Under the pieces are notes generated by a model. The model did no database searches, was not told the DNA's origin, and saw only the letters and a list, made by a program, of their open reading frames with translations. The position numbers were made by a program, and so were the translations under genes. Positions 36,531 through 63,422 of a stretch of DNA of 64,000 nucleotides are shown piece by piece. The stretch lies in contig CANQPB010000011.1 of NCBI GenBank assembly GCA_947625615.1, positions 1 through 64,000 on the forward strand, given 5' to 3'. Origin of the DNA: an uncultured Clostridia bacterium. Its GTDB lineage: Bacteria > Bacillota > Clostridia > Oscillospirales > Ruminococcaceae. Every line of letters starts with the position of its first letter. The first letter of the stretch is position 1.

Positions 36531-36618
36531 AAAATACTTGAAATCATGTTTTCCTTATGCTATAATAATTGAAATTACAGTTTATTTTAGTTTTTGTTTT
36601 AATTTTCAGGAGGATATT

Positions 36619-37122
36619 ATGGATATACCTATTAAGGAAACACTGACAGTCGAGTTTAAAAGCGATAGGCATTGTTATCCGTTGTCAAAACTTTACGAGG
36701 ACATAGTTGGTCTTGCAAATACTGATGGCGGTGTTCTTTACCTTGGTGTAGAGAACAACGGAAGCCCGACAGGGGTTGACAGTCAGCATCGGAATACGCA
36801 GAATATTGAAGCCGGCATACAGGATAATACAGAGCCGTCATTATTTACTGTTGCAACTATTGAAAATTGGGACGGATATGACGTTCTGAGTATAAAGGTT
36901 CCTGTTGCCAGACAGTTGACTATGACATCTGAAGGTAAATATCTGCGGCGGCGTCTTAAGCAGGACGGCACTCCGGAAAGCATTGCAATGAAGCCTTACG
37001 AAATAATGCAGCGGTTATCATACATTCAGGCAATAGATCCATCAGCTCAGGTGATAGAGGATTTACCTGCCAACACAGCGCTGAGTTCTCTTGAAAGAGA
37101 GCGTCTGCGCAATATGATTTAG
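36619..37122 (+). pseudogene. AlbA_2/Schlafen-type domain protein, 5' part (interrupted by in-frame TAG)
   Basis: MDIPIKETLTVEFKSDRHCYPLSKLYEDIVGLANTDGGVLYLGVENNG is AlbA_2; stop at 37120-37122, same frame continues at 37138. Confidence 0.75.
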
Positions 37123-37137
37123 ATATATCACGGAGAT

Positions 37138-38268
37138 ATGTCGCTTTTAGAGCTTTCCGATTCTGAGTTAGACAGCGCGCTTGGATTTGCAAGAGAACGG
37201 CAGGGCAAGTTGTATCCTACGGTTGCCGGTCTTTTGATGATAGGCCATGAAAACTATATTCGTCAGTACGTCCCGAGTCATGAAGTTATTTTTCAGGTTC
37301 TTGATGGAGTAAATGTTTTGGCAAATCCTCCGTCAATGAAATGCTCTTTGCTGCAGACCTTTGAAAAAGTGGACTTGCTGTTCCAGTCAAGAATAACTGA
37401 GCAGGAGCTGCAAATCGGACTGTTCAGAGTTCCGATACCCAACTATGAGAAAGAAGCCTTCCGCGAAGGCTTTGTCAACGCTTTGGTGCATCGGGATTAC
37501 TACAGAACCGGAGCTGTTCAGGTGCAGCTTCAGACGTCGTCTATGACCATTTCAAGCCCCGGAGGATTTTTGGAAGGGATAACTCCCGACAATATTCTCA
37601 CCGTAGCTCCCACTCCCAGAAACGTTCTTCTTGCCGAAGCCGCCAAAAGAATAGGTCTGGCAGAACGAACCGGCAGAGGAATAGACAAAATCTATACGTC
37701 AATGCTCAGAAGCGGTCACAATATTCCCGACTATTCCTCTTCAACGGTTGCGTCGGTAGTTTTAAGGCTTAATAGCGCCGACTTGGATAAAGAATATATC
37801 AAAATGATTGTAAATGAAGAAGATCGCTTACAAAAGGCAATGCCAGTTGATGCCTTGATAGCATTATCCGTCTTAAAAACTGAACGCCGCGCAACGTCGG
37901 AGATGTTAAGCAAGAAGATTCAGAAGTCCGATTACGAAACAAGGGGCATAATAGAATGGCTTATAGAATTGGGTATGGTCGAAGGCGTTGGAAATGGCAG
38001 AGCAAGACGGTATATGCTCAGTTCAAAAGTTTACTCTATATCCGATAATAAGGCAGGATATACCCGTCAGCGCGGCTGGGACACCTTGCAAGAACAGGAA
38101 CTCATTCTCTCGCACTTGTCCAAATACAGAACTATCACGAGAGAAGGCGCCGCAGAATTGTGCAGATGCACTCCAAATCATGCAACATGGCTGCTGCGAC
38201 AGCTGACGAGTCAGAACAAAATCAAGCTCTGCGGAAGCGGTCGCGGAGCTCACTATGAAAAACTCTAA
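37138..38268 (+). pseudogene. RecG-like/HATPase_c_4 + HTH C-terminal part of the same gene
   Basis: IPNYEKEAFREGFVNALVHRDYYRTGAVQVQL...SSPGGFLEGITPDNIL..RIGLAERTGRGIDKIY; in frame with 36619-37122. Confidence 0.75.
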
Positions 38269-38916: not shown

Positions 38917-38993
38917 TTGTTGACAACATTGACAGTATGGGAGAAGGCGTGTGGGGCGGTGGTTGGAGTTGCAGGAAGAGCGGGAGGTACATA
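38917..38993. repeat. Diverged 77-bp direct repeat, copy 2
   Basis: Gap-free alignment with 36413-36489; a weaker third trace ACATTGACAAAGTAAGAAAGAACGTGCG is at about 39849-39876. Confidence 0.8.
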
Positions 38994-39146
38994 AATTTGC
39001 AAAAAGGAAGCCCTTCAAAGAGGGTCTCCTTTTAAAGTTGTCCTATAATAGGATTGGAGTTTTTTATGAGCTAATGTTAGCATGCAGTATATGGTGTCTT
39101 TTGGAATTCATTCCAGATCAAAAAATTAAAAAAACGCAAAAAAGTA

Positions 39147-39175
39147 TTGCTATCAGCGATACAATGTGGTATAAT
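39147..39175 (+). promoter_or_regulatory. Promoter of the relBE-like operon with embedded palindrome
   Basis: TTGCTA - 17 nt - TATAAT; TATCAGCGATA palindrome in the spacer. Confidence 0.6.
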
Positions 39176-39202
39176 ATAAGAAAAACTTATGAGGTGATTA
39201 TT

Positions 39203-39526
39203 ATGGCATCAAAAACAGCAAACGTTTTGGCGCGTGTGGAACCCGAGGTCAAAATTCAGGCAGAGGCAATCATGGCGCAGCTTGGCATACCCACATCTGT
39301 CGTCATCAATATGCTCTACAAGCAGATCATTATGACACGCGGCATACCTTTTCCGATGACCGTTCCGAAAGTCGAAGTCCCGAAAGCAAGAGATGAAATG
39401 ACTGATGAGGAGTTTAATGAGAGGATCAGACACAGTTTGGCTCAGGCAAAAGCGGGGCTTGGCAGACCTGCTGACGAAGTGTTTGCAGATATTATGAGGA
39501 TGATTGATGAACATGGAAAAATATGA
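39203..39526 (+). CDS. RelB/DinJ-family antitoxin
   Basis: KTANVLARVEPEVKIQAEAIMAQLGIPTSVVINMLYKQIIMTRGIPFPM is the RelB/DinJ RHH signature. Confidence 0.9.
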   Translation: MASKTANVLARVEPEVKIQAEAIMAQLGIPTSVVINMLYKQIIMTRGIPFPMTVPKVEVPKARDEMTDEEFNERIRHSLAQAKAGLGRPADEVFADIMRMIDEHGKI

Positions 39527-39839
39527 GATTATTGTTGATCCCGATGCAGAGAAGTCATTAAATGATATTTTCCAGTATATTTTAAACGACTTAAAATCTC
39601 CGGAATCTGCCAAAAGCACATCATATGCTCTATTAAAAGCTATACACGGTCTTGATTTTATGCCCCAAAGATATGCCGTTCTGCCTGAAGATTTTTTCGA
39701 AAAAAAGGGCGTTCGGCGTATGCAGGTTTGGAATTACTTTGTGTATTTCAACGTTGACGAATCTAATGAGCGTGTCAATATCCTTGATGTTCTGTATGTC
39801 GGCAGGGAGCAAAGAGAACAGCTATGTGATAAAAAATAA
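39504..39839 (+). CDS. RelE/ParE-family toxin
   Basis: YEIIVDPDAEKSLNDIFQYILNDLKSPESA...RRMQVWNYFVYFNVDESNERVNILDVLYVGRE; overlaps the antitoxin 3' end. Confidence 0.88.
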   Translation: MMNMEKYEIIVDPDAEKSLNDIFQYILNDLKSPESAKSTSYALLKAIHGLDFMPQRYAVLPEDFFEKKGVRRMQVWNYFVYFNVDESNERVNILDVLYVGREQREQLCDKK

Positions 39840-40290: not shown

Positions 40291-41217
40291 TTATATTATC
40301 TTTCCGCGATTCCATACTTTAAATTCAACCTCACCGCTTCCTATAAATACAGTTCTAACAAAACTATCAAACGTGTCGCCATGGAAATGCGTATAGTCAG
40401 AAAAATCATCATACCTGTCGCTTAACTCGCATTCAGGATATTCAAAATCATATACCTCTGCATGATATGACAGTTCTTCTTTATATTCATCTATTATTGT
40501 CATCAACTGATATTCATCTAAAAGGCTGTAATACTCCTTCCACCATGGCGGAAGAACTATTTTGACAGATATATCTTTATCATGACATAAATCACACATT
40601 TTCCCGAGGCGATTTATCACATCACGGTCATATGTATATCCCGCAAGATAATATTTCATCTGCTCTGCGCTTATTTTAAAATGCTCCTGCTTAATTTCCG
40701 ACGTTATTTTCTGACTTTGAGAACTTACTTCCGGAGTGCTTTTGAGCAATTTTAGCATTGCTCCTGCATTTTCAAGGCTGAAAGCGTATGTCAATGGACT
40801 TTTTATGTTTTTTTCAGTTGAATTAACTCGATCCTGCTGCAGGAGCGTGTTCATATTATAAAAGCTTGTAATTATAGTTATCTCTTTCAGAGAATTTGAT
40901 TCATCATTATCTATACACCACTGGAGCAAGCTGACCATTTCTTCAGTCATACAGCCTCCATAGGCCATATTAACATAATTCAGTCCGGTCTGTTCTGACA
41001 GCTCCCCGACATCATAGTGCGCAATCCGACTATCCCCTATTATAACCGCCTCATAATCATTGTTACGAAAATCAATCATTTTAGCAATCAATGGTGAGTT
41101 ATCACTGTTTTCCTTGCTGGTTCCGAAATAATTGTATGGATCATTCATGAAAAATACCAAGATGTAAATCAGCGCCGGGGTCATCACCGCAAATATCCAT
41201 AAATATAATTTTCGCAT
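40291..41217 (-). CDS. SGNH/DltD-like secreted protein, partner of MBOAT
   Basis: N-terminal TM; EAVIIGDSRIAHYDV (GDS motif) ...YVNMAYGGCMTEE; adjacent to the MBOAT gene. Confidence 0.6.
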   Translation of the reverse strand: MRKLYLWIFAVMTPALIYILVFFMNDPYNYFGTSKENSDNSPLIAKMIDFRNNDYEAVIIGDSRIAHYDVGELSEQTGLNYVNMAYGGCMTEEMVSLLQWCIDNDESNSLKEITIITSFYNMNTLLQQDRVNSTEKNIKSPLTYAFSLENAGAMLKLLKSTPEVSSQSQKITSEIKQEHFKISAEQMKYYLAGYTYDRDVINRLGKMCDLCHDKDISVKIVLPPWWKEYYSLLDEYQLMTIIDEYKEELSYHAEVYDFEYPECELSDRYDDFSDYTHFHGDTFDSFVRTVFIGSGEVEFKVWNRGKII

Positions 41218-41242
41218 AATAAACTTCCTTTTTATTTATATA

Positions 41243-42736
41243 TCAGAACTGCATGTATGTAAAATCTCCTGATGAACGGTTCATCATAAAGAGAAGCAAC
41301 ATTACAGTCAAAACCGACAAGATGTACTTAATGACAATATTTCGCCTTTTTATCCACGTCAAAATGTCAATTCCGTATTCTTCCAAAATATCATGCAGGA
41401 ACAAAATACAAGTGGATAAGATGGTAATAGCAAAATAAACGATTGCTCCAACTTGTTTGTAGAATGACACTCCCACCTGAAGAATTTTGGATACTTGAAT
41501 CAGCTGCGTAAAATCAAGCATATTTACAATCATATGCCACGCATCTGATAAATTCGCCGAGTTAAAAATAATATATCCTATACACACTACAAAAAAAGTT
41601 GATAATATTCTTAGGAATTTATTAACCGCATGTTTTTTCTTTAAGAAAACATTTTTAAAAACTCCGATTGTCATAAAAACGCCGTAGTACAGCCCCCATA
41701 TAATAAAAGTCATATTTGCACCATGCCATAGTCCTGTAGTTATCCATACTATCAAAGTAGCAATAACCGTTGGTATGGCGCGAGCTGCTTTTTTATGACC
41801 TTTTTCTTTAAGCCGCTGTCCCATTTTTCTAAGCAATGATGTCCTTTGTAAAGGATAGAAGAGATAATCTCTGAACCATGAAGACAAGGTAATATGCCAC
41901 TTTCTCCAGAAATCTTCAACTGATGTTGCAAAATAAGGACGTTCAAAATTGTTTTTTAATTCAATTCCGAAATATGACGACATTCCCCGCACCATATCTA
42001 TACACCCGGAAAAATCGGCATATAGGTATATTGCGTAAGCAATCCCTCCGGATAATATCAGAATACCCTTATATTCCTGATAGTTGTTGAAAATTAAATC
42101 AACATACACTTTTATATTGTCGGCAACACAAATCTTTTTAAAAAGTCCCCATGCAAACAGTATCAGCGCATCTCTGCACCTTTCATATTCTATATCTTTA
42201 GGCTGATACAACATTGAAGCTACATCTGCATATCGGCTTATAGGACCATCTATCATCTGAGGAAAATATGACGCAAAGAGCAACAGTTTTAAAAAATTCT
42301 GCTGTGGCTCTATAATTCCGTTATATACATCAATCATATATCCCATCATCTGGAATGTGTAAAACGATATTCCCAAAGGAATTATCATTTGAAGTGGCTC
42401 AAAGCTTTTGCCTGCCAACGAAGTCGCACTTGATGCAAAAAAATTGAAATATTTCAGAACGACAAGAATTCCGAAATTTGAGAGAAGTCCAATTGCAAGC
42501 AAAGCTTTTTTGTACTTTTTTCTTCCGTTCCTTTCAGATTTCGACATTCCGAGCGTGCAGAAAAATGTGCTGGCAGTTGTAAAGAGCAAAAAGACAAGCC
42601 CTTTAATTCCAAATGAAGCAAAAAACGCCATGCTAAACGCCAGCAGCAACTGCCATCTCCATTTTGCATTTACAAAGCCGTAAATCAACATTAACAAGGC
42701 TAAAAATGCAAAAAACTCAAATGAATTGAATACCAT
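41243..42736 (-). CDS. MBOAT-family O-acyltransferase (AlgI-like)
   Basis: GISFYTFQMMGYMIDVYNG, SYFPQMIDGPISRY, FWRKWHITLSSWFRDYLFYPL, LWHGANMTFIIWGLYYG. Confidence 0.93.
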   Translation of the reverse strand: MVFNSFEFFAFLALLMLIYGFVNAKWRWQLLLAFSMAFFASFGIKGLVFLLFTTASTFFCTLGMSKSERNGRKKYKKALLAIGLLSNFGILVVLKYFNFFASSATSLAGKSFEPLQMIIPLGISFYTFQMMGYMIDVYNGIIEPQQNFLKLLLFASYFPQMIDGPISRYADVASMLYQPKDIEYERCRDALILFAWGLFKKICVADNIKVYVDLIFNNYQEYKGILILSGGIAYAIYLYADFSGCIDMVRGMSSYFGIELKNNFERPYFATSVEDFWRKWHITLSSWFRDYLFYPLQRTSLLRKMGQRLKEKGHKKAARAIPTVIATLIVWITTGLWHGANMTFIIWGLYYGVFMTIGVFKNVFLKKKHAVNKFLRILSTFFVVCIGYIIFNSANLSDAWHMIVNMLDFTQLIQVSKILQVGVSFYKQVGAIVYFAITILSTCILFLHDILEEYGIDILTWIKRRNIVIKYILSVLTVMLLLFMMNRSSGDFTYMQF

Positions 42737-42753
42737 TTATACTTCCTCCAGCT

Positions 42754-43169
42754 TTACTCTTCAACAATTTCAAAAATCCCGGAATTTTTACCCATCAGGA
42801 ATGCAACCTGTTTATATCCACCCCTGTGGGAAAATGCAGTCGCAAACGCAGTCGGAATTATGACCCCCTGAAGCCTTGCCTTTCAAGCTCAGATATATCT
42901 CCCTCAAGGTCACTCGACTTATAGCATATATGGTATGCCGTCGGGCCGACTTTTGAAAGATATGTATCGACGGGAGAGAGCTTTTCTTTATCTATTGGTG
43001 AAACAAGCTCGATACGGTATGAGTCATTGTTTCCGAAACAAATAAAAATATTTCGGTCTTCATCGTCAATTACATCTTCAAATTCAAAACCGAGCTTTTC
43101 AAATTCGCTGATGGCTTTGCTTATATTTTTAACAGCATAACCAATATGATCAACCGTCAAATCCTTCAC
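42754..43169 (-). CDS. VOC-family (glyoxalase/methylmalonyl-CoA-epimerase-like) protein, apparently frameshifted at a G5/C5 run
   Basis: HIGYAVKNISKAISEFEKLGFEFE...; ORF 42858-43169 ends GFRGS*, but another frame continues VIIPTAFATAFSHRGGYKQVAFLMGKNSGIFEIVEE*. Confidence 0.75.
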
Positions 43170-43173
43170 CCAC

Positions 43174-43422
43174 TTATTTATTTTCTAAATGCTTGATTAT
43201 TGCGTCAACCAATTCCCCCACATTCTTTGACCCTGAAACCTCGGCGAGGGTAAACCTGATTCCGAACTCGTCCTCAATGTCGCTGACAAGGCTTAAATGC
43301 GAGAGGCTGTCCCACTCCTCAACATCGGCGGCGGTGGTCTGCTCGGTGAGCTCGACCTCGTCGTTGTCAAAGACGTCGCGCGCGATTTCCGTGATTTTCT
43401 TAAGTATTTCGTTTCTTTCCAT
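43174..43422 (-). CDS. Acyl carrier protein
   Basis: AADVEEWDSLSHLSLVSDIEDEFGIRFTLAEVSGSKNVGELVDAI; DSL phosphopantetheine site. Confidence 0.93.
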   Translation of the reverse strand: MERNEILKKITEIARDVFDNDEVELTEQTTAADVEEWDSLSHLSLVSDIEDEFGIRFTLAEVSGSKNVGELVDAIIKHLENK

Positions 43423-43427
43423 TTTAA

Positions 43428-45158
43428 TTACTCCTTTATATAAATTTTCTTTTCTTCGTATTTGCTTACGTCCATAACGTAATTGTTTTCGGATATTTCC
43501 TCAAAGCCCATAGTCTTATAAATATCCTTTACCATTGCGTTTTTCGGGGTCGGGATATATTCGCCGTAAACGCGCTTATATCCGCGGTTTTTTGCCTCAC
43601 GCATAAAGCAGTTGACGATATATTCCTCCATTCCCCGTTTCAGAACGCGGCAGCTCATCAGCCAGGTGTCGATGAAAAGCTCGTCCCCGTTTTTCTTTTT
43701 CATAATAACTACTCCGACTAAGCCGTGGTCGCCGAATTTATCGCGGAGGGTGTAGTAAAGGGTCACATAATTCGGGTCGTTTGCGATGCTTTGGATATCC
43801 GCATCGGTATAACGAACGGTTCGCAGGTTAAACTGGTTCGAGCGTTGGGTTAGCTGGGCAATACGCGAAAACTTAGACTCCTCAAACGGCTTCGCCTCGC
43901 CTATCATCTTGAGGCTTTCAAGGTAGCCGTCGATGGATTCAAAGGACATCATCAGCTTGGTGCGCTCAAATTCCGCCTGATAAAGCTTTGTGCGATCAGA
44001 GCCTGCGCCTGTGAACGAAGCCGTTTCAAAGTAATTCTGCTCCTGCAAATATCCAAGATAAAGCGCGGGGTCCTCGGGGAGCTCGGGAACTTCGATTTCG
44101 GGTATCATCTGCCGAACGAGATTTCGCTCGAACGGGTTGTCGTCGATAAATACCATTGAGTCCATACCGATATTCAGCGTCTTCTGAATAAGGCGAATAT
44201 TCGAGGCTTTGTCCTCCCAGTTCGCGACGAAAAGAGCTATATCCGAAAGCCTGAGAATCATCTCGTCGTGCTCCTCGAAAGGCTTTTTCGCGATGTCCTC
44301 GTTGTTTTTGCTGCATACGCAGAGGATTATGCCGCATTCTTTAAGCTGTTTAAGCCAGCGCTGGAAGTCGGTGAAAACGTGTCCCCTGCCGAGCTCGCCG
44401 ATTTCGATGTTATCCATGCCGTCGTCGCCTATAACGCCGCCCCAAAGGGTGTTGTCAAGGTCCAAAACGACGCATTTTTTGATTCTTCCGGCAAGCGCTT
44501 TCTGAACGTCTATAACCGCCTTTGCGACATAGGGAAGGGCGTCGGTAGATACTGTCATCTTTGCATTGTAGTAGAGCGGAGCATCGTAAAACGCAGATGT
44601 TCCGAGATGAATCTGAACCGACAAAAGATCAATCGGGTAAACGTTTTTGCGCTGCTCCATCGCTTCCGAGAGCATAAAATTCAGCTTACGAATTTGGTAA
44701 ACGAACGCGGAATTTACTTTGCAGGAGTAGTTGCCGAGCGCCTTGTCGTCGATTTCGGTGAAGTTCATTTGCAGGATATTTGCCTTGCTGTTCTTGGAGA
44801 TGAGGTCCCAGTACATCGTGATTTTTTGCATCACTGACACGGCAAAACCCGAACGTGCCTCAAGCGGCAAATCCAGAAATTCCTCGTAGAGCTTGTCCGT
44901 CGCGAGCCACAAAAGTATGCTGTCAGGCTCGAAGTTGTAGACTTCGGAGGCAGGGTCTAAAAGCTGAGCCTCAATTTGGTTGTAGTCGGCGTCGTAGACA
45001 GTCAGCGGGAGATTTTCGAGGGTTGCGTAACCACAGATTGCTACGGCTAAAAACTGGGTGGATACGTTGCCCAAAATTGCGAGGCGGCGAGGGGTGCCGG
45101 GAGCTATTTGTTTTGAGGTTTTTCTCAATTCTTTGAATGTGTGCATATCATTTACCAA
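43428..45158 (-). CDS. HAD-IIIC family phosphatase (FkbH-like)
   Basis: KCVVLDLDNTLWGGVIGDDGMDNIEIG and MVFIDDNPFERNLVRQMIPEIEVPELP are FkbH hallmarks. Confidence 0.93.
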   Translation of the reverse strand: MVNDMHTFKELRKTSKQIAPGTPRRLAILGNVSTQFLAVAICGYATLENLPLTVYDADYNQIEAQLLDPASEVYNFEPDSILLWLATDKLYEEFLDLPLEARSGFAVSVMQKITMYWDLISKNSKANILQMNFTEIDDKALGNYSCKVNSAFVYQIRKLNFMLSEAMEQRKNVYPIDLLSVQIHLGTSAFYDAPLYYNAKMTVSTDALPYVAKAVIDVQKALAGRIKKCVVLDLDNTLWGGVIGDDGMDNIEIGELGRGHVFTDFQRWLKQLKECGIILCVCSKNNEDIAKKPFEEHDEMILRLSDIALFVANWEDKASNIRLIQKTLNIGMDSMVFIDDNPFERNLVRQMIPEIEVPELPEDPALYLGYLQEQNYFETASFTGAGSDRTKLYQAEFERTKLMMSFESIDGYLESLKMIGEAKPFEESKFSRIAQLTQRSNQFNLRTVRYTDADIQSIANDPNYVTLYYTLRDKFGDHGLVGVVIMKKKNGDELFIDTWLMSCRVLKRGMEEYIVNCFMREAKNRGYKRVYGEYIPTPKNAMVKDIYKTMGFEEISENNYVMDVSKYEEKKIYIKE

Positions 45159-46332
45159 TTATATTCTTTATAAATTTTTTGGCTGAACTCTTAACAGACG
45201 CATATATCCTCTTGGCTTTATTCGAGCCTTCAATACTCCATACGACTTGGCTGAAAGGCTCTTTGCTCAATCTTTCAAAAAATTCTGCCCTTCTGGGATT
45301 AAGCTTTACGCAGTTTAATATTCTCGGGTTACCTCTCGTCGCCTCTTGGATAGTTCGTGTTTCTATGATTAAGTTTTCAGACGCATTTTTCAGCAGCAGG
45401 TCGCCTTTTGGGGAATTTACCATTGCAACTGACACTCCGTATTTTTCCTCTTCCTTAGTGAAATTCAGCCCCCAAAAATCGCCCATTGAAATATCTGCAA
45501 TTCTCGGAAACGTTTTGTATTTGCAGTTTTCACATGATTGCCGGATATGAATTCTCAATGAAACAAACGAATTGACCCATGAGTCTGTTATTCTGTTTCC
45601 ATAATATACTTTACCGTTTTTAAATCTGACCATAGTTCCGAGGTTTGTCCAACCTCTTGACTTATTTTTCAGATGGACCTCCTGAACTTCGGACTTATAT
45701 GTTTTCTCAAGTTCCTCAATAAAACTTCTGAACGCCAAGGGAGAATTTATCCCCAAACATATAAAATCCGCAGAATAAAGATTAGGATATTCTTTTCCGA
45801 CATATCCATATAAAGCACTCACCTGACAAGGCGTGCCACAGAATAATACCTTTTTGCCATTATCCAGAAGCTTTTTTACCTGCTTATATATACCCTCCGT
45901 GTCGCTTTGAAAATATTTGGTGCGCATTATCTTTTTTAAACCATCATGATTATTTGAAATAAAGTGATGTGCGCCTTTCCAGTCGTCATCATATACGCAG
46001 CCAACTATATACCCGCTATCTTTCAAAAAAGCGTCTGCAAGGCCGTAATACAATGCTCCCGATGTGCTGTTATATCTTATATCCTTATCTTTGTTATATA
46101 CTTTATAAACTTTGGGTTCTTCATAGTTTTCATGAGATGCATAATGGCATTCCAATGCAGGGCAAGTTTTCTCACACAAACCGCACCTTACACATATATC
46201 TCCATTTATTCTCGGAAACCAAAAGCCCTCTTTATCAAGTTCGTATGTTATTGCATTAACGGGACATATGTCGCCGCAAGCCTTGCAGCCTACGCAATCA
46301 AGTTTTGAAACTTTATCAATCATGCCTTCCAC
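45148..46332 (-). CDS. FrhB-type (coenzyme F420 hydrogenase/dehydrogenase beta-subunit-like) protein with two 4Fe-4S clusters
   Basis: CVGCKACGDICPVNAI...CVRCGLCEKTCPAL; VLFCGTPCQVSALYGYVGKEYPNLYSADFICLGINSP. Confidence 0.9.
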   Translation of the reverse strand: MEGMIDKVSKLDCVGCKACGDICPVNAITYELDKEGFWFPRINGDICVRCGLCEKTCPALECHYASHENYEEPKVYKVYNKDKDIRYNSTSGALYYGLADAFLKDSGYIVGCVYDDDWKGAHHFISNNHDGLKKIMRTKYFQSDTEGIYKQVKKLLDNGKKVLFCGTPCQVSALYGYVGKEYPNLYSADFICLGINSPLAFRSFIEELEKTYKSEVQEVHLKNKSRGWTNLGTMVRFKNGKVYYGNRITDSWVNSFVSLRIHIRQSCENCKYKTFPRIADISMGDFWGLNFTKEEEKYGVSVAMVNSPKGDLLLKNASENLIIETRTIQEATRGNPRILNCVKLNPRRAEFFERLSKEPFSQVVWSIEGSNKAKRIYASVKSSAKKFIKNIIGK

Positions 46333-46892
46333 TTAACCTCCAATGCCGATCTTGCCGGACTTCCAACTGCCATTGTTCCCGAGCGAATTTTACCCGCTAC
46401 CAAAGAACCAGCAGAAATAACAGCACCATCGCCTATCTTACTTCCGCGGATTACCGTACACTTAAGACCTATCCAAACATGGTCACCTATTGTAACAGGA
46501 CGCGGCGGGTTTGTCTGGTTGCCGTTGTCATCCAAAAGCGGGTGATGATCGGAATCGTATATAAATACTTCACGAGAAATCAGTACTTCTTTCCCTATGT
46601 TGATTTCTTTTGCAGCCAATATGACTGCACCCGTATTTATGTATGCCGAACCAATAGTAACTGTTGCATCTTTCTTTATTTCAATCGTGGCTTTATAGCA
46701 AAGACTTGTATCGCCCAATATCTCAAGCCGCGCTCCTTTCGACATTCTCACATAAGCCTCTGCTTTAGAATGCTTAGGAAGATAGTAGTTAACACGAAAA
46801 TACCCATCATGTAAAATAATTTTTGCACCTTTTTCTATGTCCAAAGAAGCGTGCTTATACGGCATCAGAAAACCTTTGCCCTGTCTTTCCAC
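46320..46892 (-). CDS. Left-handed beta-helix (hexapeptide) acyltransferase
   Basis: TIGDHVWIGLKCTVIRGSKIGDGAVISAGSLVAGKIRSGTMAVGSPARSAL. Confidence 0.88.
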   Translation of the reverse strand: MERQGKGFLMPYKHASLDIEKGAKIILHDGYFRVNYYLPKHSKAEAYVRMSKGARLEILGDTSLCYKATIEIKKDATVTIGSAYINTGAVILAAKEINIGKEVLISREVFIYDSDHHPLLDDNGNQTNPPRPVTIGDHVWIGLKCTVIRGSKIGDGAVISAGSLVAGKIRSGTMAVGSPARSALEVKWKA

Positions 46893-46985
46893 TTTTTTGC
46901 TGAAAAAGTTATACCAAATAAATTTTTGAAGGCTGATTTTTGAAGCAGAATTATTTTACTTTTCAGTCCCATCGTTTCACCTCAT

Positions 46986-47942
46986 TCAATCGTTATAAAT
47001 ATATTTAGAATCATCTATCCCATTTGAGTCAAGCAGGGCATAATCTTTATTAAGTGATTCTATCTCAGCCATTTCTTCCCTTGTCAATTCAAAGTCAAAA
47101 ATATTAAGATTCTCAGTCATATGCTCCTTGCTGAATGTGCTCACAACCGGGATTACTCCGTTTTGATAATGCCAACGCAGTGTAATCTGAACAGATGTCT
47201 TGTTATATTTAGCAATCATTTTTTTCATGATGTCCGTATCTGCAAGTTCCTTTGAGCCTCTTGCAGTCGGGGTATGCGCTTCGAGCAAGATATTATGCTC
47301 TTTGCAGTATTCGCGAAGCTCGCGCTTTGAATTCAGCGGATGCAATTCCGTCTGAACTATCATCGGCGGCCCAAGTCCGGCCTCTTCGATTTGTTTTAGA
47401 TGGCTGACATGAAGATTGCAGGCACCGTACGCTTTGCATTTTCCCATTTTATACTGTTCAATTATCTGAGCATAGTAATTCAGCCAATCGCCCTCAGGCC
47501 AGTGGAGCAAATATACATCGACGCAGTTAACTCCGAGATTAGCAAGAGAGATTTCGAGATTACCCTTTACTGTATTAGGAGAGCAACTCCTGGTAACGTC
47601 CATTGCGCTGCATTTTGTAACAAGAACAGTGCCTTCTTTTTGAGCAACTGTTTTCCCAATATACTTTTCAGAATAACCATAAATTCTGCCCGTATCAAAC
47701 ATTCTGTATCCGACGTCATACGCTTGTTCGAGATATTTTTTGCAAAACAGGTTTCCTTTAAGCTCTCTGTTCAATTTTAAGTGCTTTACAGATGACAGGA
47801 TTTCACGAAGATTAATCTTTAAAAACAGCTTTTTGTTTCTGCTGTATTTCCATATAACCCCGGTTCCGAAAGAAATCCAAGGGAGCGTCAGCCCGTTGTC
47901 CAACACATACGACTTATCCTGTCTTTCCATATTTGCCTCCAA
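46986..47942 (-). CDS. Aldo/keto reductase
   Basis: GLTLPWISFGTGVIW...YRMFDTGRIYGYSEKYIGK...DVYLLHWPEGDWLNYYAQIIEQYKMGKCKAYGACN. Confidence 0.9.
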   Translation of the reverse strand: MEANMERQDKSYVLDNGLTLPWISFGTGVIWKYSRNKKLFLKINLREILSSVKHLKLNRELKGNLFCKKYLEQAYDVGYRMFDTGRIYGYSEKYIGKTVAQKEGTVLVTKCSAMDVTRSCSPNTVKGNLEISLANLGVNCVDVYLLHWPEGDWLNYYAQIIEQYKMGKCKAYGACNLHVSHLKQIEEAGLGPPMIVQTELHPLNSKRELREYCKEHNILLEAHTPTARGSKELADTDIMKKMIAKYNKTSVQITLRWHYQNGVIPVVSTFSKEHMTENLNIFDFELTREEMAEIESLNKDYALLDSNGIDDSKYIYND

Positions 47943-47951
47943 ATCATAATT

Positions 47952-48794
47952 TTATAATACCTTTTTAATATCTTCCCATACTGTTTTTGTAAAATCCTTT
48001 TGATTTTCAGGGGTGAGGAACAATCCGTTTGTATAAAAGCTTTCATCTTTAAATCGCTTGTCGTCTATGTAATTCAGAAGCGGAGTACTATCATCTGTTG
48101 CCGACCGCAAATTATCATAAACAAAGCTCTGTATGAAATCATCCGATATATTATTGCGAAGCTCTCCACTCATCGGAGGAATAAGGATTACAGGTCTAAG
48201 TCCATGTAAACGACAGTTATCTATGACTTTTTTCAAATCGTTTTCCTTTTCTTTGAACACGTCACGGTAATATTCCGCCTGAGCAGAATCCGTCAGATTG
48301 TTTAAATATTTATTGTCCGATACCCACCCTTTGACCATAGCATCTATTGGACTCAAAGCGCCGGCTTTTTTACATGAAAAAAGCTTTTTCAGCCTACGGC
48401 AAAGTCCACTTAATACTCTTAGAATGAAATTTTTGCACTTAAGGGAAATAGGGAGTTTTTTATATAGCGAATACTTCCATTTCGGCAAGTCCACATCTGA
48501 CGCCGGAAGAATTGAAACATATTTTTCGGAAAAACTATCTTTATAGAGATAATCATTTTTTGCAAACGAAAGAGGGCATACAACTACTATTACAACTCCA
48601 CCCATCTTAACATGATTGCCGTAGCACTTTATTATCCGCGCGTCGTAACGAAAGTCCTCAGGGACTATTGCCATATTACAGCCTGATATTTCAGGTATGG
48701 CAGACCAGTCAAAATCATAATAGCTCGGACCTGATCCTATATTTACCGCGTCCAAATTGTAAGGAATATTTGAAAACCGTTCTTTTAAATTCAT
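47952..48794 (-). CDS. Hypothetical polysaccharide-cluster protein, possibly SGNH-like
   Basis: VNIGSGPSYYDFDWS start and C-terminal YTNGLFLTPENQKDFTKTVWEDI; no confident family. Confidence 0.5.
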   Translation of the reverse strand: MNLKERFSNIPYNLDAVNIGSGPSYYDFDWSAIPEISGCNMAIVPEDFRYDARIIKCYGNHVKMGGVVIVVVCPLSFAKNDYLYKDSFSEKYVSILPASDVDLPKWKYSLYKKLPISLKCKNFILRVLSGLCRRLKKLFSCKKAGALSPIDAMVKGWVSDNKYLNNLTDSAQAEYYRDVFKEKENDLKKVIDNCRLHGLRPVILIPPMSGELRNNISDDFIQSFVYDNLRSATDDSTPLLNYIDDKRFKDESFYTNGLFLTPENQKDFTKTVWEDIKKVL

Positions 48795-48810
48795 ATGCCC
48801 TCTCCAAATA

Positions 48811-50328
48811 CTATTTAACCAATTTTGCAATAGCACTTTTTACATAGCCCTTTTCGCTGTCGGAAAGCGAGATGCACCATACCGATGCTGCATAAATAAC
48901 AGTATATAATACCGCATACAAGAATATCGAACCGTATATAGAGTGTACAAGATTAAAAATCATTAACACTGTGCCGGCGGCAAAAGGTATTAACCAGCCG
49001 GGAATAAGCTTCAGCATTTCTATATAATGCTCTTTCATGTTGATTTTTACTATTTTTTGGAAGTATAACGTCTGAACAAAAATACAGATAACAACTTCAC
49101 AGCCGAATGTGCCGAGCGCGCTGCCAATCGCTCCAAATCTTTGGGCGAGCGGTATGCTGACAATAAAATTTAAAAAAGCAACGGAAGCATTTATAAGTAT
49201 CTGGATTTTATGTAAATTTTTTGCGCGAGCAATATCCTGCCCGAGCCCTTGACACAGCGATACCGTCACCGGAAGCATAATCAGAACTCCAACATAATAT
49301 GACTGCGTATACTCGGAACCTGACCATCTTTCTATAAACGGCTTGCCGAAAAAGATAAATCCGGACATTATAAAAACTGCGACCTGTGCAAATATTCTTG
49401 ATGTTCTGACAAATAAATCCGAAAGCTGCTTGCTGCTTTCTCTTGCGGCAAGTCTATTGATCTCGGCTATAAATACTCCGGATACCGCACTTGCGATAGT
49501 AATAAAATATGTATTAAATGTGCTTCCGACAGAATAAACTGCAACCTCGTCAGCACCTTTAACTCTTGCCAAAATAAATTTGTCCACCTGCCAATTCAAC
49601 TGATCCATTATCGACTGAATTGCGATAAAACCTGCAAATGCGGCGACAGATTTCAAAAAGACATAATCCGTATGCTTAAGGTCAAATCGCATTTTAAGTC
49701 TGCAAACAGCATACAAGCCGTTAGCAAGAAGCATAAATAACGTAAGCGTCAAATTGATTGCCACAACCGTAATCGACCCAAATCCGCAAAGCAAAAACGG
49801 AATTGTTACCAAAGGTACCAAAATCGTATGCAACAAATCAACAAGTTTACCTATAACGAACTTTTCATGAGCGATTATGCAAGAAGAAAAAACGCCGTTC
49901 AAAGAAGCTGTAAAAACAGTAACCGATAAAATCGATAAAGATTTCTTGAAGATTTCATATTCATTTGGAAGAATTTTGCTTCCGAACAGCATCTCAGCAT
50001 TTGCTGAAATCAAAAACCCTGCAAGCATGCCGACAATACCCAGAGTTAAAAATATCTTCAGGAAAATCCCGTTTATACTCTTGGCATTGTGATCGCCTTT
50101 TTCCTTTGACTGAACATAAAATCTCACATACGCCGCATTCATGCCGCCATTAAGGATGGTAAGATATCCGATAAAAGATGTGCAAAGAGAATATACGCCG
50201 TATTCGCTCTGCCCCAAGGAGTGCAGAATAATCGGAGTATAGATAATCCCGGAAATTATCTTGAATGCTATCGAAAGGTATGAGAGCACTACTCCGGCAG
50301 TCATCTGCTTCTTTCTATCGGAATTCAT
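48811..50328 (-). CDS. Polysaccharide flippase (Wzx/PST family)
   Basis: GVVLSYLSIAFKIISGIIYTPIILHSLGQSEYGVYSLCTSFIGYLTIL; about 12-14 TM. Confidence 0.9.
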   Translation of the reverse strand: MNSDRKKQMTAGVVLSYLSIAFKIISGIIYTPIILHSLGQSEYGVYSLCTSFIGYLTILNGGMNAAYVRFYVQSKEKGDHNAKSINGIFLKIFLTLGIVGMLAGFLISANAEMLFGSKILPNEYEIFKKSLSILSVTVFTASLNGVFSSCIIAHEKFVIGKLVDLLHTILVPLVTIPFLLCGFGSITVVAINLTLTLFMLLANGLYAVCRLKMRFDLKHTDYVFLKSVAAFAGFIAIQSIMDQLNWQVDKFILARVKGADEVAVYSVGSTFNTYFITIASAVSGVFIAEINRLAARESSKQLSDLFVRTSRIFAQVAVFIMSGFIFFGKPFIERWSGSEYTQSYYVGVLIMLPVTVSLCQGLGQDIARAKNLHKIQILINASVAFLNFIVSIPLAQRFGAIGSALGTFGCEVVICIFVQTLYFQKIVKINMKEHYIEMLKLIPGWLIPFAAGTVLMIFNLVHSIYGSIFLYAVLYTVIYAASVWCISLSDSEKGYVKSAIAKLVK

Positions 50329-50352
50329 CTATACCCTCCTTTTGAGATAAAA

Positions 50353-51480
50353 TTATTCTTCGTGAAAACATTTTTTATAAAACTCCGCTGCCTTTTTGCG
50401 CTCTGCTTTCAAAACCTCCGGCACACCGGAATAATCCACCGTAAACAGCGCGTCACGGACAGCCCCGGCAGTGTCAAATCCGTCCTTAAGCTCGTCAAAA
50501 TGCCTGCCGGAGATTCCAAACTTATTAAAGAGCGTGTCAAGCCTGCTACCCATGCCTTTGATGTCCGAACGCTCAGTCACGACAAACGGCCTGTTAAACA
50601 GGATGGAGAAAACCGACGCGTGGAAGCTGTCCGTCACGACGAGTTTCGCGTTATGTATCCAGTATAGAAACTCATCGGGGCGGGTGTGAATATAATAGTC
50701 GCTGTCAATGTCCATGATGTCTATAACCTGCAATCCGAGGTCATCGGCAAGCGTGCAGATTTTTTCTTTGACCTTCCCATTAAAACCACCCAAGGCATAA
50801 ACAAAAATGTAGTTGTCATTAACGTACTGCGAAGGCTTTTTTAGGATTTTCAACCATTCCGAAGTGTCAATGAGCATGGTCGGGTCAAGCAGTACCGTTG
50901 CGTATTTGCCAGTAAGCTCCTTTATAAGTTCAGCACCGCGTTCCTCGCGGACAGATAAGTATTCAAAGCCTTCGAGACCTTTTTTGTAGGTTTTGAGATA
51001 CTTTTTCGGAAACTCGTCAAAGCCGAAGCTCGGGGCGATAGTCAGGCGCTGGGATGGAGTGGCAAACATCAGGAGGAAGTATTCGAGAGTCTTTATCCCC
51101 CTCTTCATATAGTGCCAAACCTGGTCGCTGCCCGCGACAAAATACTTGACTTCAAATTTCCCTTTGATGTTAGTATAACCGCAATCGGCTCCGATTTTAA
51201 TATATTCATCGGAAAAAGCCTTTATATTTTCTCTTCTCTTACTTAATGCTTCGACATATTTTCTCTTTTCTTTTTCAAAACCATTAGCCTGTAAAATGCG
51301 ATGAACAAGACGTTTTATGAATATCTTAACGCCACGTCTCGGCAAAAGCTGCCGTGAACATGGTAAAGTTTCTACATCAAAACCCATCAATTCAAAGCAC
51401 CTTTGTACCGCATAGTTTTGAAGCTTATTACCAAAATTTACGTTATCATATAATGTTACAATTGCAATTTTTTCTTTCAT
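50353..51480 (-). CDS. Polysaccharide pyruvyl transferase family protein
   Basis: KIAIVTLYDNVNFGNKLQNYAVQRCFELMGF...FVAGSDQVWH...VVTDSFHASVFSILFNRPFVV. Confidence 0.92.
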   Translation of the reverse strand: MKEKIAIVTLYDNVNFGNKLQNYAVQRCFELMGFDVETLPCSRQLLPRRGVKIFIKRLVHRILQANGFEKEKRKYVEALSKRRENIKAFSDEYIKIGADCGYTNIKGKFEVKYFVAGSDQVWHYMKRGIKTLEYFLLMFATPSQRLTIAPSFGFDEFPKKYLKTYKKGLEGFEYLSVREERGAELIKELTGKYATVLLDPTMLIDTSEWLKILKKPSQYVNDNYIFVYALGGFNGKVKEKICTLADDLGLQVIDIMDIDSDYYIHTRPDEFLYWIHNAKLVVTDSFHASVFSILFNRPFVVTERSDIKGMGSRLDTLFNKFGISGRHFDELKDGFDTAGAVRDALFTVDYSGVPEVLKAERKKAAEFYKKCFHEE

Positions 51481-54246: not shown

Positions 54247-55488
54247 TTATGATAGATGATATTCCAAATAATCAATAAATAGAAGAACGATAAAAACCGC
54301 CATTCCTATTTCTTTCGAAGATAACACCGGATTGAGGAATATTAGCATTAGCATTGCCAACAACATCAATTTGATTATCCTTTTATTTCGGGCTTCAAGT
54401 TCGGAATAATATGGGTTAATTCCACATTTGATTGTCCAAAGGATTATTAATAAAAACAAAATCCCAAATAAACCCATACTCCCCATTAAATCCAAAATTT
54501 CGGAGTGACCACCTATATTTGAATTAAACCATCCTCCGATTAGTGGATTATCAAGAAATAATATCCAGCTTTTCCTGTAGACTTCCTGTCGTAAATAAAC
54601 ATCAGAAAATGTAGAGGTTGAGTTCATTTTCGTAACATAATATATTTCTTGTATTCTTCTCTGTAGCGTTTCTTGATTTCGAGTTGTTGATATGAGCCAT
54701 ATAAAAACATTATCAAGATTTAACGCAGCAAATGAAAAAATGACAATAATACCTAAAATAAACAGTATTTTCTTTTTGATATCCATTTTTTCAAAAGCTA
54801 CTAAAACTGTCATTATTCCCAGGATCAATATTAAAATGAGATACTGAGAACAAAACACACATATATAAGACAAGAGCATTGGAATAGCTAAAATTCTCCT
54901 CTTAGTCTGTTTATATAAACATATCAATAGTGGTGTAACAAACAAAGATATGTAACAGAATCCGAATCCCCCTATATTTTCACTCCTATACTTATATGCC
55001 AAAGTTGCTTCAATATCTGATGTTGCAAGATACCTGGATGGAATACTATATTTTATATTTCCAATAATCGTAGTGATACATGTAATTGAATACACAATTA
55101 AGAATATTCTAAGAAGTATTTTCAAATTATCATGATTATATACACTTTTATTGGGAAACAATTCTAAACTAAAAAATACCGGAAACCAAAACTCATACAA
55201 TAAAAGCATTTTATTTATTAATGTTGTATAATGCATCCACTGTGTTTTGTAAATTAAATAGTCGAACAATGTAATCAATGCAATGGTAGCAATAGTGTAT
55301 ATTGATATTGTTTTTTTAAACAATATCCCAATAAAATAACAAGAAAAGCTTGCAAAAATAATAATATTAAATACTTTGCCCTGCGCTTGCAAAACAGGTA
55401 AAAACATTGCTAAAATATATAAAACAATTGATACATATATTAAGCTTGCTACCTTATTTTTTTTAAATGCCTTCAATGGATCACCCAC
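54247..55488 (-). CDS. O-antigen ligase/polymerase-like (Wzy) membrane protein
   Basis: Multi-TM; SWILFLDNPLIGGWFNSNIGGHSEILDLMGSMGLFG resembles the Wzy_C/O-antigen-ligase loop. Confidence 0.8.
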   Translation of the reverse strand: MGDPLKAFKKNKVASLIYVSIVLYILAMFLPVLQAQGKVFNIIIFASFSCYFIGILFKKTISIYTIATIALITLFDYLIYKTQWMHYTTLINKMLLLYEFWFPVFFSLELFPNKSVYNHDNLKILLRIFLIVYSITCITTIIGNIKYSIPSRYLATSDIEATLAYKYRSENIGGFGFCYISLFVTPLLICLYKQTKRRILAIPMLLSYICVFCSQYLILILILGIMTVLVAFEKMDIKKKILFILGIIVIFSFAALNLDNVFIWLISTTRNQETLQRRIQEIYYVTKMNSTSTFSDVYLRQEVYRKSWILFLDNPLIGGWFNSNIGGHSEILDLMGSMGLFGILFLLIILWTIKCGINPYYSELEARNKRIIKLMLLAMLMLIFLNPVLSSKEIGMAVFIVLLFIDYLEYHLS

Positions 55489-56487
55489 CTATATCTCAAA
55501 TGATGATTTTTCATGCAATATACTATCAAAAGCTCGATTTAATAGTTTAACGCGATTTGTAAATTCTCTTTGGCTCATTTTCGTATCATTAAGACACATC
55601 ATTTTAGTTTTTTGATTTTTAATGCAATCAACTGCAGCATCTATATTATATGCCGGAATATTTCTCCCAACTTTTGTAGAACGAGGATAAAAATTACCGC
55701 TTGCAATCTGCCATTCCTTAAAAACCCACTGATTCACATCAGTCATTTCTCTGTACTTATGGAGGCAGGTTTCGTTCAGAATGTCGTAATACTTATCCCA
55801 AACCTCATTAAAAGTTGACTTACAAAATGACGTGGGGAGATGCTGCTGAAGCATTCCGGGAAAACGAGGGCATGAAAGCAGAATTAAATTTCTTAGGATA
55901 TTGATTCCGTACTTCATGTTAAACCATCCACTGATATTCTTTTTAATAACTTCACGCATTCTAAATTCATGATTTATTACGCCAATATCACGGAATGGCG
56001 CCATGATCACCATATCTTCCATATTATAGCAATGCACGTTCAATATTGCAGAGTCGCAGGGTTTTCCTTCCCTAAAAAAATCATTTTCTGTAGTAGGCTT
56101 AATGATGAACATATCATCGTTGAAATATACAAAGAGGTCTGAAAGTCCTTCTATTCTGTGCAAGTTCAGTTCAATTGTATGGCTGCTAAAAGTTGGCAGA
56201 TATTGTTCGGGTATGTAATCTCTGTGATTTACTATGTTAAGCCTTGGATTCTCCGTGTTCAACCATTTGGGGAGATGTCCCCATGTAACAAAATGGATAG
56301 TACGTACCCATGGGCAGAACTTTTCAACCCCTCTGAACCAATACTGAAGATTATTCCAGTCGCGATACCTATGTTCGCTGTCATCCTCTTCTTTAGTCAG
56401 AACGCCTTTATATTCATTTTTTTCTTTTTTCCATTCAGGGTCGTTCCCATCGACCCAAATGATCACGAAATCAATGTCGCTCTGCAT
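55489..56487 (-). CDS. Stealth-family hexose-1-phosphate phosphotransferase
   Basis: IDFVIIWVDGNDPEWKKEKNEY (CR1) and VRTIHFVTWGHLPKWLN...YIPEQYLPTFSSHTIELNLHRIEGLSDLFVYFNDDMFI (CR2). Confidence 0.92.
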   Translation of the reverse strand: MQSDIDFVIIWVDGNDPEWKKEKNEYKGVLTKEEDDSEHRYRDWNNLQYWFRGVEKFCPWVRTIHFVTWGHLPKWLNTENPRLNIVNHRDYIPEQYLPTFSSHTIELNLHRIEGLSDLFVYFNDDMFIIKPTTENDFFREGKPCDSAILNVHCYNMEDMVIMAPFRDIGVINHEFRMREVIKKNISGWFNMKYGINILRNLILLSCPRFPGMLQQHLPTSFCKSTFNEVWDKYYDILNETCLHKYREMTDVNQWVFKEWQIASGNFYPRSTKVGRNIPAYNIDAAVDCIKNQKTKMMCLNDTKMSQREFTNRVKLLNRAFDSILHEKSSFEI

Positions 56488-57571
56488 TGCCAGCCATCCT
56501 TGTCTTATTCAATAATCTGTTTTCAATTTTTTTCGTAAGGCTTCCTACTATATATCTGTGGGACAATACCGCCAAAACGCCAATTACTATAAAGGAAGCT
56601 ATAAACGTAATTGCAAATTGCCTTACCGAGGTAAACTCGCGGCAAATATTGTTTATAATAAAATTGATCACTACCATGTGATAAAGGTAAAAACTATAAG
56701 AATAATCTTGTTTTAATCTTTTTTTGAAAGAAAATCCGATTCCCGTCAGCATTAAAAGCATTATCAGAGTTGTGATCAGATTATAACGTATCCCACTGAA
56801 TATTTTCACGAGTGAACTCGGCGTAAGATATTCCCAAATCAGGTACGCTGCCGCAAAAATCCACTTCCATTTTACGAGGATAGGTATTAACGTATTTCGA
56901 TTGTAATATACACACATTCCGATAAGGAATATCCACAGAAAAGAGACCAGATTGCACTGCAATAATTTATATACAATCTCGGGATAAAGCCCTTTTCCCT
57001 TTTCAAGCGCCCAGTCAAGAATCATTCCAAATGCAATTACAACACTCCATGCTTTTATTCCCTTTCTCTTCAGCCACTTTGCAAGGAAAATGGCAGCTAT
57101 GTAAAACTGTATATCAACAGTAATAGTCCATAATGCCCCGTTCGGCACACCAACGCCGTAATCTCTTAGCCATTCATCGGTATAAAATTGGAAAACAGTC
57201 ATTTGTGTACCAATATACACTGCTATATCTTTACAGCTGTACCCCCCCCCGCGTGAAATTAAGATGAGCGCAAGGTTAAGAAGTACATCCGCCCAAAGTT
57301 CTGGGAAAATTCTGATTGCGCGCCGTTTAAGAAATTCGCTTGTTTTATATCGTTCAAGAGATTTTGCTATAAAGAGCCCACTCAGGAAAAAGAATACAGG
57401 AACTCCTCTCACAAAATATGCAACGCCATGAAGCAAATCACTATCAAATGAAAAATGAGTAATAAAATGTCCAAGAAAGACTGTAAAGGCGCAGATCAGC
57501 CTTATTATGTCAAAACAGTTATCATTTATGTTGACCTTAGCTGCGTTATCGTCCACGTTCATTTCCTCCAC
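56471..57571 (-). CDS. Acyltransferase family 3 (OafA-like) membrane protein
   Basis: CFDIIRLICAFTVFLGHFITHF; VRGVPVFFFLSGLFIAKSLERY; ALWTITVDIQFYI. Confidence 0.9.
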   Translation of the reverse strand: MEEMNVDDNAAKVNINDNCFDIIRLICAFTVFLGHFITHFSFDSDLLHGVAYFVRGVPVFFFLSGLFIAKSLERYKTSEFLKRRAIRIFPELWADVLLNLALILISRGGGYSCKDIAVYIGTQMTVFQFYTDEWLRDYGVGVPNGALWTITVDIQFYIAAIFLAKWLKRKGIKAWSVVIAFGMILDWALEKGKGLYPEIVYKLLQCNLVSFLWIFLIGMCVYYNRNTLIPILVKWKWIFAAAYLIWEYLTPSSLVKIFSGIRYNLITTLIMLLMLTGIGFSFKKRLKQDYSYSFYLYHMVVINFIINNICREFTSVRQFAITFIASFIVIGVLAVLSHRYIVGSLTKKIENRLLNKTRMAGNAERH

Positions 57572-62754: not shown

Positions 62755-63422
62755 TTAATAACCGTTTCCTTCGCAGTTTCTTCTGTCTTAATGCTTCCCG
62801 TTCCGCCCTCGACCACTCCGTCGTGCCTGAGAACGGAAATAAACGTCCCGAAGAAGCATCTCAGATCCATCATAAAGCCCTTGAATTTTCCTTCATTCAG
62901 CACTTTGACATAATCGCCGTCGAGCTTTGCCTTAACAGGTATTTCAAGCTCATCTCTGCCGTTTATCTGCGCCCAGCCCGTAAGCCCTGGGCGCACGTCG
63001 TTTGCGCCGTATTTATCTCGCTCGTCGGCTAAATCGTCCTGGTTCCAAAGAGCGGGGCGAGGACCGACTATCGCCATATCGCCTTTGACTATGTTGAATA
63101 TCTGGGGCAGCTCGTCTATGCTCATCTTCCGCATAAACTTTCCCCACCTCGTTATGTACTGCTCGGGATTTTCAAGCATATGGGTCGGAACGTCGTGCGG
63201 CGTGGACATCTTCATACTCCTGAATTTGTAGCAGTTGAAAAACGTCCGCTTGATTCCAATTCGCTTCTGCTTGAAAATTACAGGTCCCGGGTCATCAATA
63301 AATATAATCAGCGAAACTATAAGCATAGGTATCGCGAGAATTATCAAGCCGACTAAAGAAAGTATTAAATCAATAAACCTTTTAATACAGTTTTTGTACA
63401 TTTTCTCAGCCTCATATATCAA
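62751..63422 (-). CDS. Initiating phosphoglycosyl transferase (sugar transferase, PglC/WcaJ C-domain type)
   Basis: CIKRFIDLILSLVGLIILAIPMLIVSLIIFIDDPGPVIFKQKRIG; MRKMSIDELPQIFNIVKGDMAIVGPRPAL. Confidence 0.94.
   Translation of the reverse strand: MIYEAEKMYKNCIKRFIDLILSLVGLIILAIPMLIVSLIIFIDDPGPVIFKQKRIGIKRTFFNCYKFRSMKMSTPHDVPTHMLENPEQYITRWGKFMRKMSIDELPQIFNIVKGDMAIVGPRPALWNQDDLADERDKYGANDVRPGLTGWAQINGRDELEIPVKAKLDGDYVKVLNEGKFKGFMMDLRCFFGTFISVLRHDGVVEGGTGSIKTEETAKETVIK

Follow-up and report, generated by a model that had tools for sequence, protein, structure and literature searches.

In the Dlt pathway, a membrane-bound O-acyltransferase (MBOAT) takes an acyl group from a carrier protein and hands it to a tyrosine in the FXYXXF peptide of DltX, from which it passes to an SGNH protein (PMC12148441). 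The contacts between DltB and DltC have been described (PMC11035591). In PatAB, acetyl-CoA is the acyl source, and the tyrosine belongs to an FXYXXF tail of the MBOAT itself; such systems are held to lack a carrier (PMC12148441). Elsewhere, FkbH and an acyl carrier protein (ACP) make glyceryl-ACP from 1,3-bisphosphoglycerate (PMC7489565). The present analysis concerns 64,000 nucleotides of an uncultured Clostridia bacterium (contig CANQPB010000011.1 of assembly GCA_947625615.1; hereafter the window), in which genes for FkbH, ACP, VOC, MBOAT and SGNH proteins lie consecutively on the minus strand from 45158 to 40291. This set probably encodes a hybrid of the Dlt and Pat types, in which a three-carbon (C3) acyl group loaded by FkbH is delivered by a carrier and transferred to a surface glycan. 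The gene module is well supported, and the chemistry is putative.

The open reading frame (ORF) list bears out the layout of five contiguous, co-directional genes proposed by a sequence-only reading of the window, except that the VOC gene is truncated by a frameshift at a run of five G residues. Intergenic gaps are 5, 4, 17 and 25 bases in gene order, counting the VOC gene to its original end, and the FkbH, ACP, MBOAT and SGNH genes are intact, co-directional and tightly packed. The FkbH-like HAD-IIIC enzyme (43428–45158; probable start ATG at 45146), the proposed loader of a glycerate-derived C3 unit, scored 296.8 bits against TIGR01686 in a profile search (cut-off 146.65) and 225.5 bits against FkbH_N (PF21211; E 7e-67), in agreement with its earlier assignment. 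It carries the HAD DxDxT motif as DLDNT at residue 233 and CSKNN at residue 282, has 3slr as its closest solved structure (E 7e-115) and is the only FkbH gene product of the genome. Similarly, the assignment of a free-standing ACP with an intact DSL site (43174–43422) held, with 31.8 bits against PF00550 (cut-off 20.8) and a predicted phosphopantetheine site at Ser39 in EWDSL; a phosphopantetheinyl transferase gene is present in the genome. The MBOAT (41243–42736; PF03062, 49.4 bits against a cut-off of 27) has a catalytic histidine by sequence, His338 in WHG, and a C-terminal acyl-shuttle motif of the FXYXXF type, FTYMQF (41246–41263), that includes Tyr494. Its best structure matches are DltB entries 6bug and 8jem (E 5e-19).

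A search for FkbH gave matches in 22 of 99 relatives and, at E 1e-20, in 81 of 394 genomes of the order; same-strand neighbours were counted at the 54 FkbH loci having 6 kb on both sides. Co-occurrence of the modules had been set beforehand as a test of the sequence-only reading, and the modules proved to be co-conserved: an ACP lies near FkbH in 51/54 loci, an MBOAT in 36/54, and an MBOAT or a DHHW-SGNH gene in 44/54. The chance expectation of an MBOAT near FkbH is ∼1–2%, judging from four MBOATs in 2.17 Mb; because the FkbH–MBOAT linkage recurs across families, chance does not explain the arrangement. The gene orders seen are FkbH-ACP-MBOAT-SGNH, FkbH-ACP-VOC-MBOAT-SGNH, MBOAT-DHHW-FkbH-ACP and FkbH-ACP-MBOAT-DHHW. 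The order FkbH-ACP-VOC-MBOAT, which is found in further families too, occurs in loci L073, L104, L107 and L190, and FkbH-VOC-MBOAT, with the ACP not labelled, in L103, L146 and L177. A scan in which each species was represented by a single genome yielded 80 named loci, almost all of them from Clostridia; in the Bacteroidota member Mariniphaga sediminis, FkbH-ACP-VOC-MBOAT and an AlgX-like SGNH gene adjoin a Wzx. Conserved genes of ∼445 residues upstream of DHHW-FkbH-ACP (L066, L069, L072) were considered as MBOATs and rejected, as they have no MBOAT features.

The MBOAT had been called AlgI-like, a description that fails on its donor side. Its donor-side loop (residues 290–337; 41726–41869), which aligns with the part of DltB contacted by DltC, comprises 48 residues with a net charge of +7 and lacks the motif GG[NST]R. 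This motif occurs in 0/86 FkbH-linked and 0/14 DltA-DltC-linked MBOATs (0/100 carrier-linked in all), and in 42/48 distinct carrier-unlinked MBOATs (7/9 and 38/42 in two samples that share three loci); the MBOAT rows are related, so these counts are not independent, and the motif correlates with donor type but is not established as a donor site. Judged by this correlate, the window MBOAT does not fall with the acyl-CoA-using Pat/Alg type. This genome encodes three further MBOATs, counted among the 42; each has GG[NST]R and no carrier gene nearby.

In the MBOAT tree, the window protein falls within a 52-row clade (SH-aLRT support 96) of FkbH-linked and DltA-linked MBOATs that holds no row of the unlinked group; its branch is long, and its placement inside the clade is unsure. 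Two unlinked paralogues of this genome (L199 and L200) group with FkbH-linked rows in the other clade, yet keep GG[NST]R, a contrast that, on these sequence comparisons, is not explained by shared ancestry. In the bacterial MBOATs compared (the window protein and those of L231–L287), the motif sets carrier-unlinked apart from carrier-linked members; it is a possible predictor of donor type and would offer a simple way to recognise MBOATs that are carrier-fed. In L231, L233, L236, L240 and L243, DltA-like and DltC-like genes lie beside MBOATs bearing their own FXYXXF-like tail, a Dlt-like arrangement with a fused shuttle.

Compared with Dlt, the locus shares a small carrier protein, an MBOAT whose closest solved structure is DltB, and a FXYXXF tyrosine followed by an SGNH protein. 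In contrast with Dlt, FkbH takes the place of DltA, no adenylating enzyme was found among the cluster genes scanned (40291–64000), and the MBOAT carries the shuttle peptide in its own chain, the 4–25 base gaps leaving no room for a DltX gene. Furthermore, the MBOAT scores 152.5 bits against the DltB model TIGR04091 (375 required) and the ACP 16.6 bits against DltC (68 required), and the SGNH protein is not DltD. With PatA–PatB, AlgI–AlgJ–AlgX and PatA1–PatB1 the locus shares an MBOAT with a C-terminal FXYXXF motif and an adjoining SGNH gene, whose modelled product matches PatB; those systems, however, are held to use acyl-CoA and no carrier (PMC12148441), whereas the window pairs its MBOAT with an ACP and lacks GG[NST]R.

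Tetronate and methoxymalonyl-ACP modules likewise combine FkbH with a free-standing ACP and draw their C3 unit from 1,3-bisphosphoglycerate (PMC7489565), but there glyceryl-ACP feeds a polyketide, whereas the neighbours in the window are MBOAT-SGNH and a polysaccharide cluster and include neither FabH nor a ketosynthase. A related arrangement is that of the DltA-DltC-MBOAT-SGNH operons L231, L233, L236 and L240 of the same order, which have a carrier and a shuttle-fused MBOAT that falls in the window protein's clade and has an equally long donor loop; their loader is amino-acid-adenylating, unlike FkbH, and their acyl is probably an amino acid.

The SGNH acyltransferase-like protein (40291–41217) has one N-terminal transmembrane helix, GDSR with Ser63, and Asp274 with His277 or His279, and so shows the membrane anchor and Ser-Asp-His residues of the SGNH proteins that accompany MBOATs. 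Its AlphaFold model (mean predicted local distance difference test score 67, a medium confidence; one N-terminal helix) resembles PDB entries of SGNH/GDSL hydrolases and of PatB. Of its previous description as a DltD/SGNH-like, GDS-motif anchored protein, the SGNH fold, the motif and the anchor stand, but no DltD model was matched in profile searches; a weak match to DUF1574 (E 3e-5) is under the cut-off. Homologues are few in the 394 genomes of the order. Three of them (L194–L196) each lie directly downstream of an MBOAT with a shuttle tail, for which reason the window protein is taken to be an MBOAT partner. A second SGNH-like protein (47952–48836, between Wzx and an aldo/keto reductase) has no Pfam match and no predicted transmembrane helix, and is homologous to the SGNH protein accompanying the MBOAT in L025 and L118.

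Upstream of the five genes lies a polysaccharide cluster, at whose distal end the set had been placed, correctly. It includes Wzx (48811–50328), a protein with nine transmembrane helices that may be Wzy (54247–55488), an initiating sugar transferase, glycosyltransferases, a Stealth phosphotransferase, a pyruvyl transferase and a FnlA/B/C-like set (Polysacc_synt_2, RmlD-type and UDP-GlcNAc 2-epimerase). From this gene content (sugar-synthesis set, glycosyltransferases, Wzx, possible Wzy, initiating transferase), the acceptor is likely to be a capsule or exopolysaccharide. In the proposed pathway, FkbH would take a C3 unit from 1,3-bisphosphoglycerate and load it onto the ACP as D-glyceryl-ACP, as expected of its family. 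In many relatives a cassette of further enzymes would then alter the ACP-bound acyl; in the window lineage this cassette is VOC. The MBOAT, as sequence and linkage suggest, would take the acyl from the ACP and pass it to Tyr494 in its FTYMQF tail, from which, by analogy with PatAB and Dlt, the SGNH protein would move it to a hydroxyl of the Wzx-exported polysaccharide. The earlier proposal of a Dlt-like, ACP-fed MBOAT-SGNH pathway loaded by FkbH is strengthened by the co-conservation, the carrier-linked MBOAT clade devoid of the donor-loop motif and the shuttle tail; its Dlt likeness does not extend to the SGNH partner.

The segment between ACP and MBOAT varies among relatives. Window FkbH shares 95% identity with the L119 protein, 94% with one from genome G018 and 92% with the L115 protein. 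Collinearity of the window with L115, L117 and L119 extends from ∼51 kb to 43174–43190, and DNA homology with these near relatives ends at the ACP stop codon, at 43174. After the ACP, L119 continues with GcvH, dihydrolipoyl dehydrogenase, lipoate ligase, two HgdD-like subunits and a BcrAD ATPase; L117 starts in the same way and then ends with its contig; L115 has MaoC-like and SDR genes; and L120 proceeds directly to MBOAT and SGNH. In the FkbH tree the four cassette classes require 20 changes, and an eight-row clade that includes the window (support 98) holds all four. By these comparisons, a constant front end, FkbH-ACP, is followed by an exchangeable part: VOC, MaoC plus SDR, a 2-hydroxyacyl-dehydratase set, or nothing. 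The dehydratase set is present in two copies in G018; both are followed by an MBOAT, and one of them by an SGNH gene as well.

In L025 (9211–18865), L026 and L119 (7001–14184), FkbH-ACP precedes the complete run from GcvH to the BcrAD activator, and the MBOAT comes next in L025 and L026. A 2-hydroxyacyl dehydratase acting on an ACP-bound acyl, if true, would be unusual. Genes of ∼590 and ∼500 residues after the ACP in L140 were rejected as a cassette, being an M24 peptidase and a class I (E/Q) tRNA synthetase.

The VOC gene (42754–43169) resembles glyoxalase I and methylmalonyl-CoA epimerase. Its ORF stops after 103 codons, following LERQGFRGS, owing to a 1-base shift at the five-G run (42864–42868): the in-frame part spans 43169–42858, and the remaining VOC fold (VIIPTAFATAFSHRGGYKQVAFLMGKNSGIFEIVEE) is encoded in another frame, after this run, down to the TAA at 42756–42754. 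The assignment as a VOC/epimerase-like protein is upheld by PF13669 (64.1 bits), but the truncated ORF keeps three of four metal ligands, the fourth lying beyond the frameshift, and scores 46.5 bits against the methylmalonyl-CoA epimerase model TIGR03081 (cut-off 114.95), a score computed on that truncated ORF. Eight intact VOC genes of FkbH loci occupy a single frame and, when aligned, all keep ligands H5, E52, H75 and a C-terminal glutamate. The closest structures to an intact relative, 3hdp and 2qh0, are named glyoxalase I/lactoylglutathione lyase, and the C. acetobutylicum enzyme has been discussed (PMC5412262).

The shift may be a real mutation, phase variation or a sequencing or assembly error; programmed frameshifting was rejected, as there is no canonical slippery site and the relatives are single-frame. 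No second VOC gene of this kind was found in the genome, and VOC-MBOAT-SGNH did not turn up again when the genus was searched at the DNA level. The VOC gene looks broken in this assembly, where its step probably does not operate, and the idea that VOC modifies the ACP-bound acyl, as originally written, may not apply to this strain. The VOC gene of L107 (5380–5800), an FkbH-ACP-VOC-MBOAT locus belonging to a different family, shows a frameshift too, located in a seven-G run and possibly due to phase variation or assembly error.

In L027, L123 and L126, VOC stands beside FkbH-ACP with no MBOAT detected in the vicinity; this links VOC to the acyl carried by the ACP. Glyoxalase I and methylmalonyl-CoA epimerase-type enzymes shift a proton next to a thioester. 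Since the substrate here would be an α-hydroxy thioester, and L-glycerate esters occur in gellan, the function tentatively favoured for VOC, with somewhat less than even confidence, is C2 epimerisation of glyceryl-ACP (D to L). Native gellan is an exopolysaccharide with L-glycerate esters (PMC9104527), the stereochemistry that a D-to-L epimerase would give; genes for glyceryl transfer were not found in the gellan literature consulted, and the likeness is one of ester chemistry.

A somewhat unlikely alternative is that the acyl is a C3 group other than glyceryl (lactyl, 3-oxopropionyl or hydroxymalonyl), made by FkbH or the cassette, with VOC acting in the manner of glyoxalase I to convert a hemithioacetal into an α-hydroxyacyl thioester on the ACP. 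The names of the nearest VOC structures, the H/E/H/E ligands and the nature of the other cassettes (MaoC plus SDR, the dehydratase set) would all suit such chemistry. However, the same FkbH-ACP, up to 95% identical, accompanies every cassette, which points to one starting acyl, and a hemithioacetal route is unneeded with FkbH present.

Several observations weigh against carrier-fed acylation of an exported glycan. The sequence samples are phylogenetically correlated; the VOC gene of this genome is frameshifted; and the SGNH partner, with its medium-confidence model, is only distantly related to known acyltransferases. A hexapeptide acyltransferase (46320–46892), an AT3 protein (56471–57571) and a PglD-like protein (63419–64000) in the cluster could also use acyl-ACP. 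Furthermore, six FkbH-ACP loci of the same order (L032, L033, L038, L041, L042 and L056) carry MaoC-like and SDR genes with no MBOAT within reach, so FkbH-ACP serves other ends too. The last two points favour an arrangement in which FkbH-ACP supplies the N- or O-acylation of a nucleotide sugar by a cytosolic acyltransferase of hexapeptide or PglD-like type, with MBOAT-SGNH an ordinary acetyl-CoA-dependent O-acetylation pair adjoining by position. This arrangement is judged improbable: ACP and MBOAT stay linked while other genes change, the window MBOAT lacks GG[NST]R and belongs to a carrier-linked clade, and hexapeptide genes of the window type adjoin FkbH almost only in near relatives. About as improbable is a decaying operon that no longer acylates in this strain, with the frameshift at the five-G run and the want of a second VOC gene as signs of functional loss: FkbH, ACP, MBOAT and SGNH all retain their full length and their motifs, many relatives do without any VOC, and a single-base error in a draft assembly is possible.

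Carrier-fed MBOAT-SGNH acylation with an FkbH loader would be a new variation on the known MBOAT-SGNH pathways, with chemistry drawn from a central metabolite, 1,3-bisphosphoglycerate, in place of an adenylating enzyme. No description of an FkbH-MBOAT, DHHW-MBOAT, FkbH-capsule or glyceryl-ACP system of this kind was found in the open-access literature, subscription papers being outside the search. A 2025 account states that non-Dlt MBOAT-SGNH pathways work without a carrier (PMC12148441); the loci gathered here form a large set in which a carrier is paired with a shuttle-fused MBOAT. The chances appear evenly balanced that the locus represents an undescribed type of envelope acylation that is widespread among anaerobic Clostridia of the gut, with a fixed FkbH-ACP C3-loading front, a fixed MBOAT-SGNH back and a swappable cassette (VOC, MaoC plus SDR, or 2-hydroxyacyl dehydratase with lipoyl proteins) that sets the C3 ester on the glycan. 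If so, cassette exchange would alter surface chemistry, as glycosyltransferase exchange does; it predicts new ester groups on gut-bacterial capsules, which could affect immune recognition, phage adsorption and glycan degradation. The FkbH-ACP-MBOAT route also offers a testable path for glyceryl esters such as those of gellan.

Other genes of the window include an FrhB/FdhB_C Fe-S protein (PF04432; 45148–46332, minus strand), the last gene of the upstream block common to L115, L117 and L119. The remainder of this collinear block (46320–51144, minus strand) comprises the hexapeptide acyltransferase, the aldo/keto reductase, the SGNH-like protein, Wzx and the start of the pyruvyl transferase gene. 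Downstream of the polysaccharide cluster, on the opposite strand, lies a pair encoding a RelB-like antitoxin and a ParE-like toxin (38951–39839). AlbA_2 and HATPase_c_4 parts, normally found in one protein, are encoded by two adjacent ORFs (36538–37122 and 37138–38268), and this gene may be interrupted. A glycosyl hydrolase family 115 protein of 1285 residues is encoded at 20734–24591.

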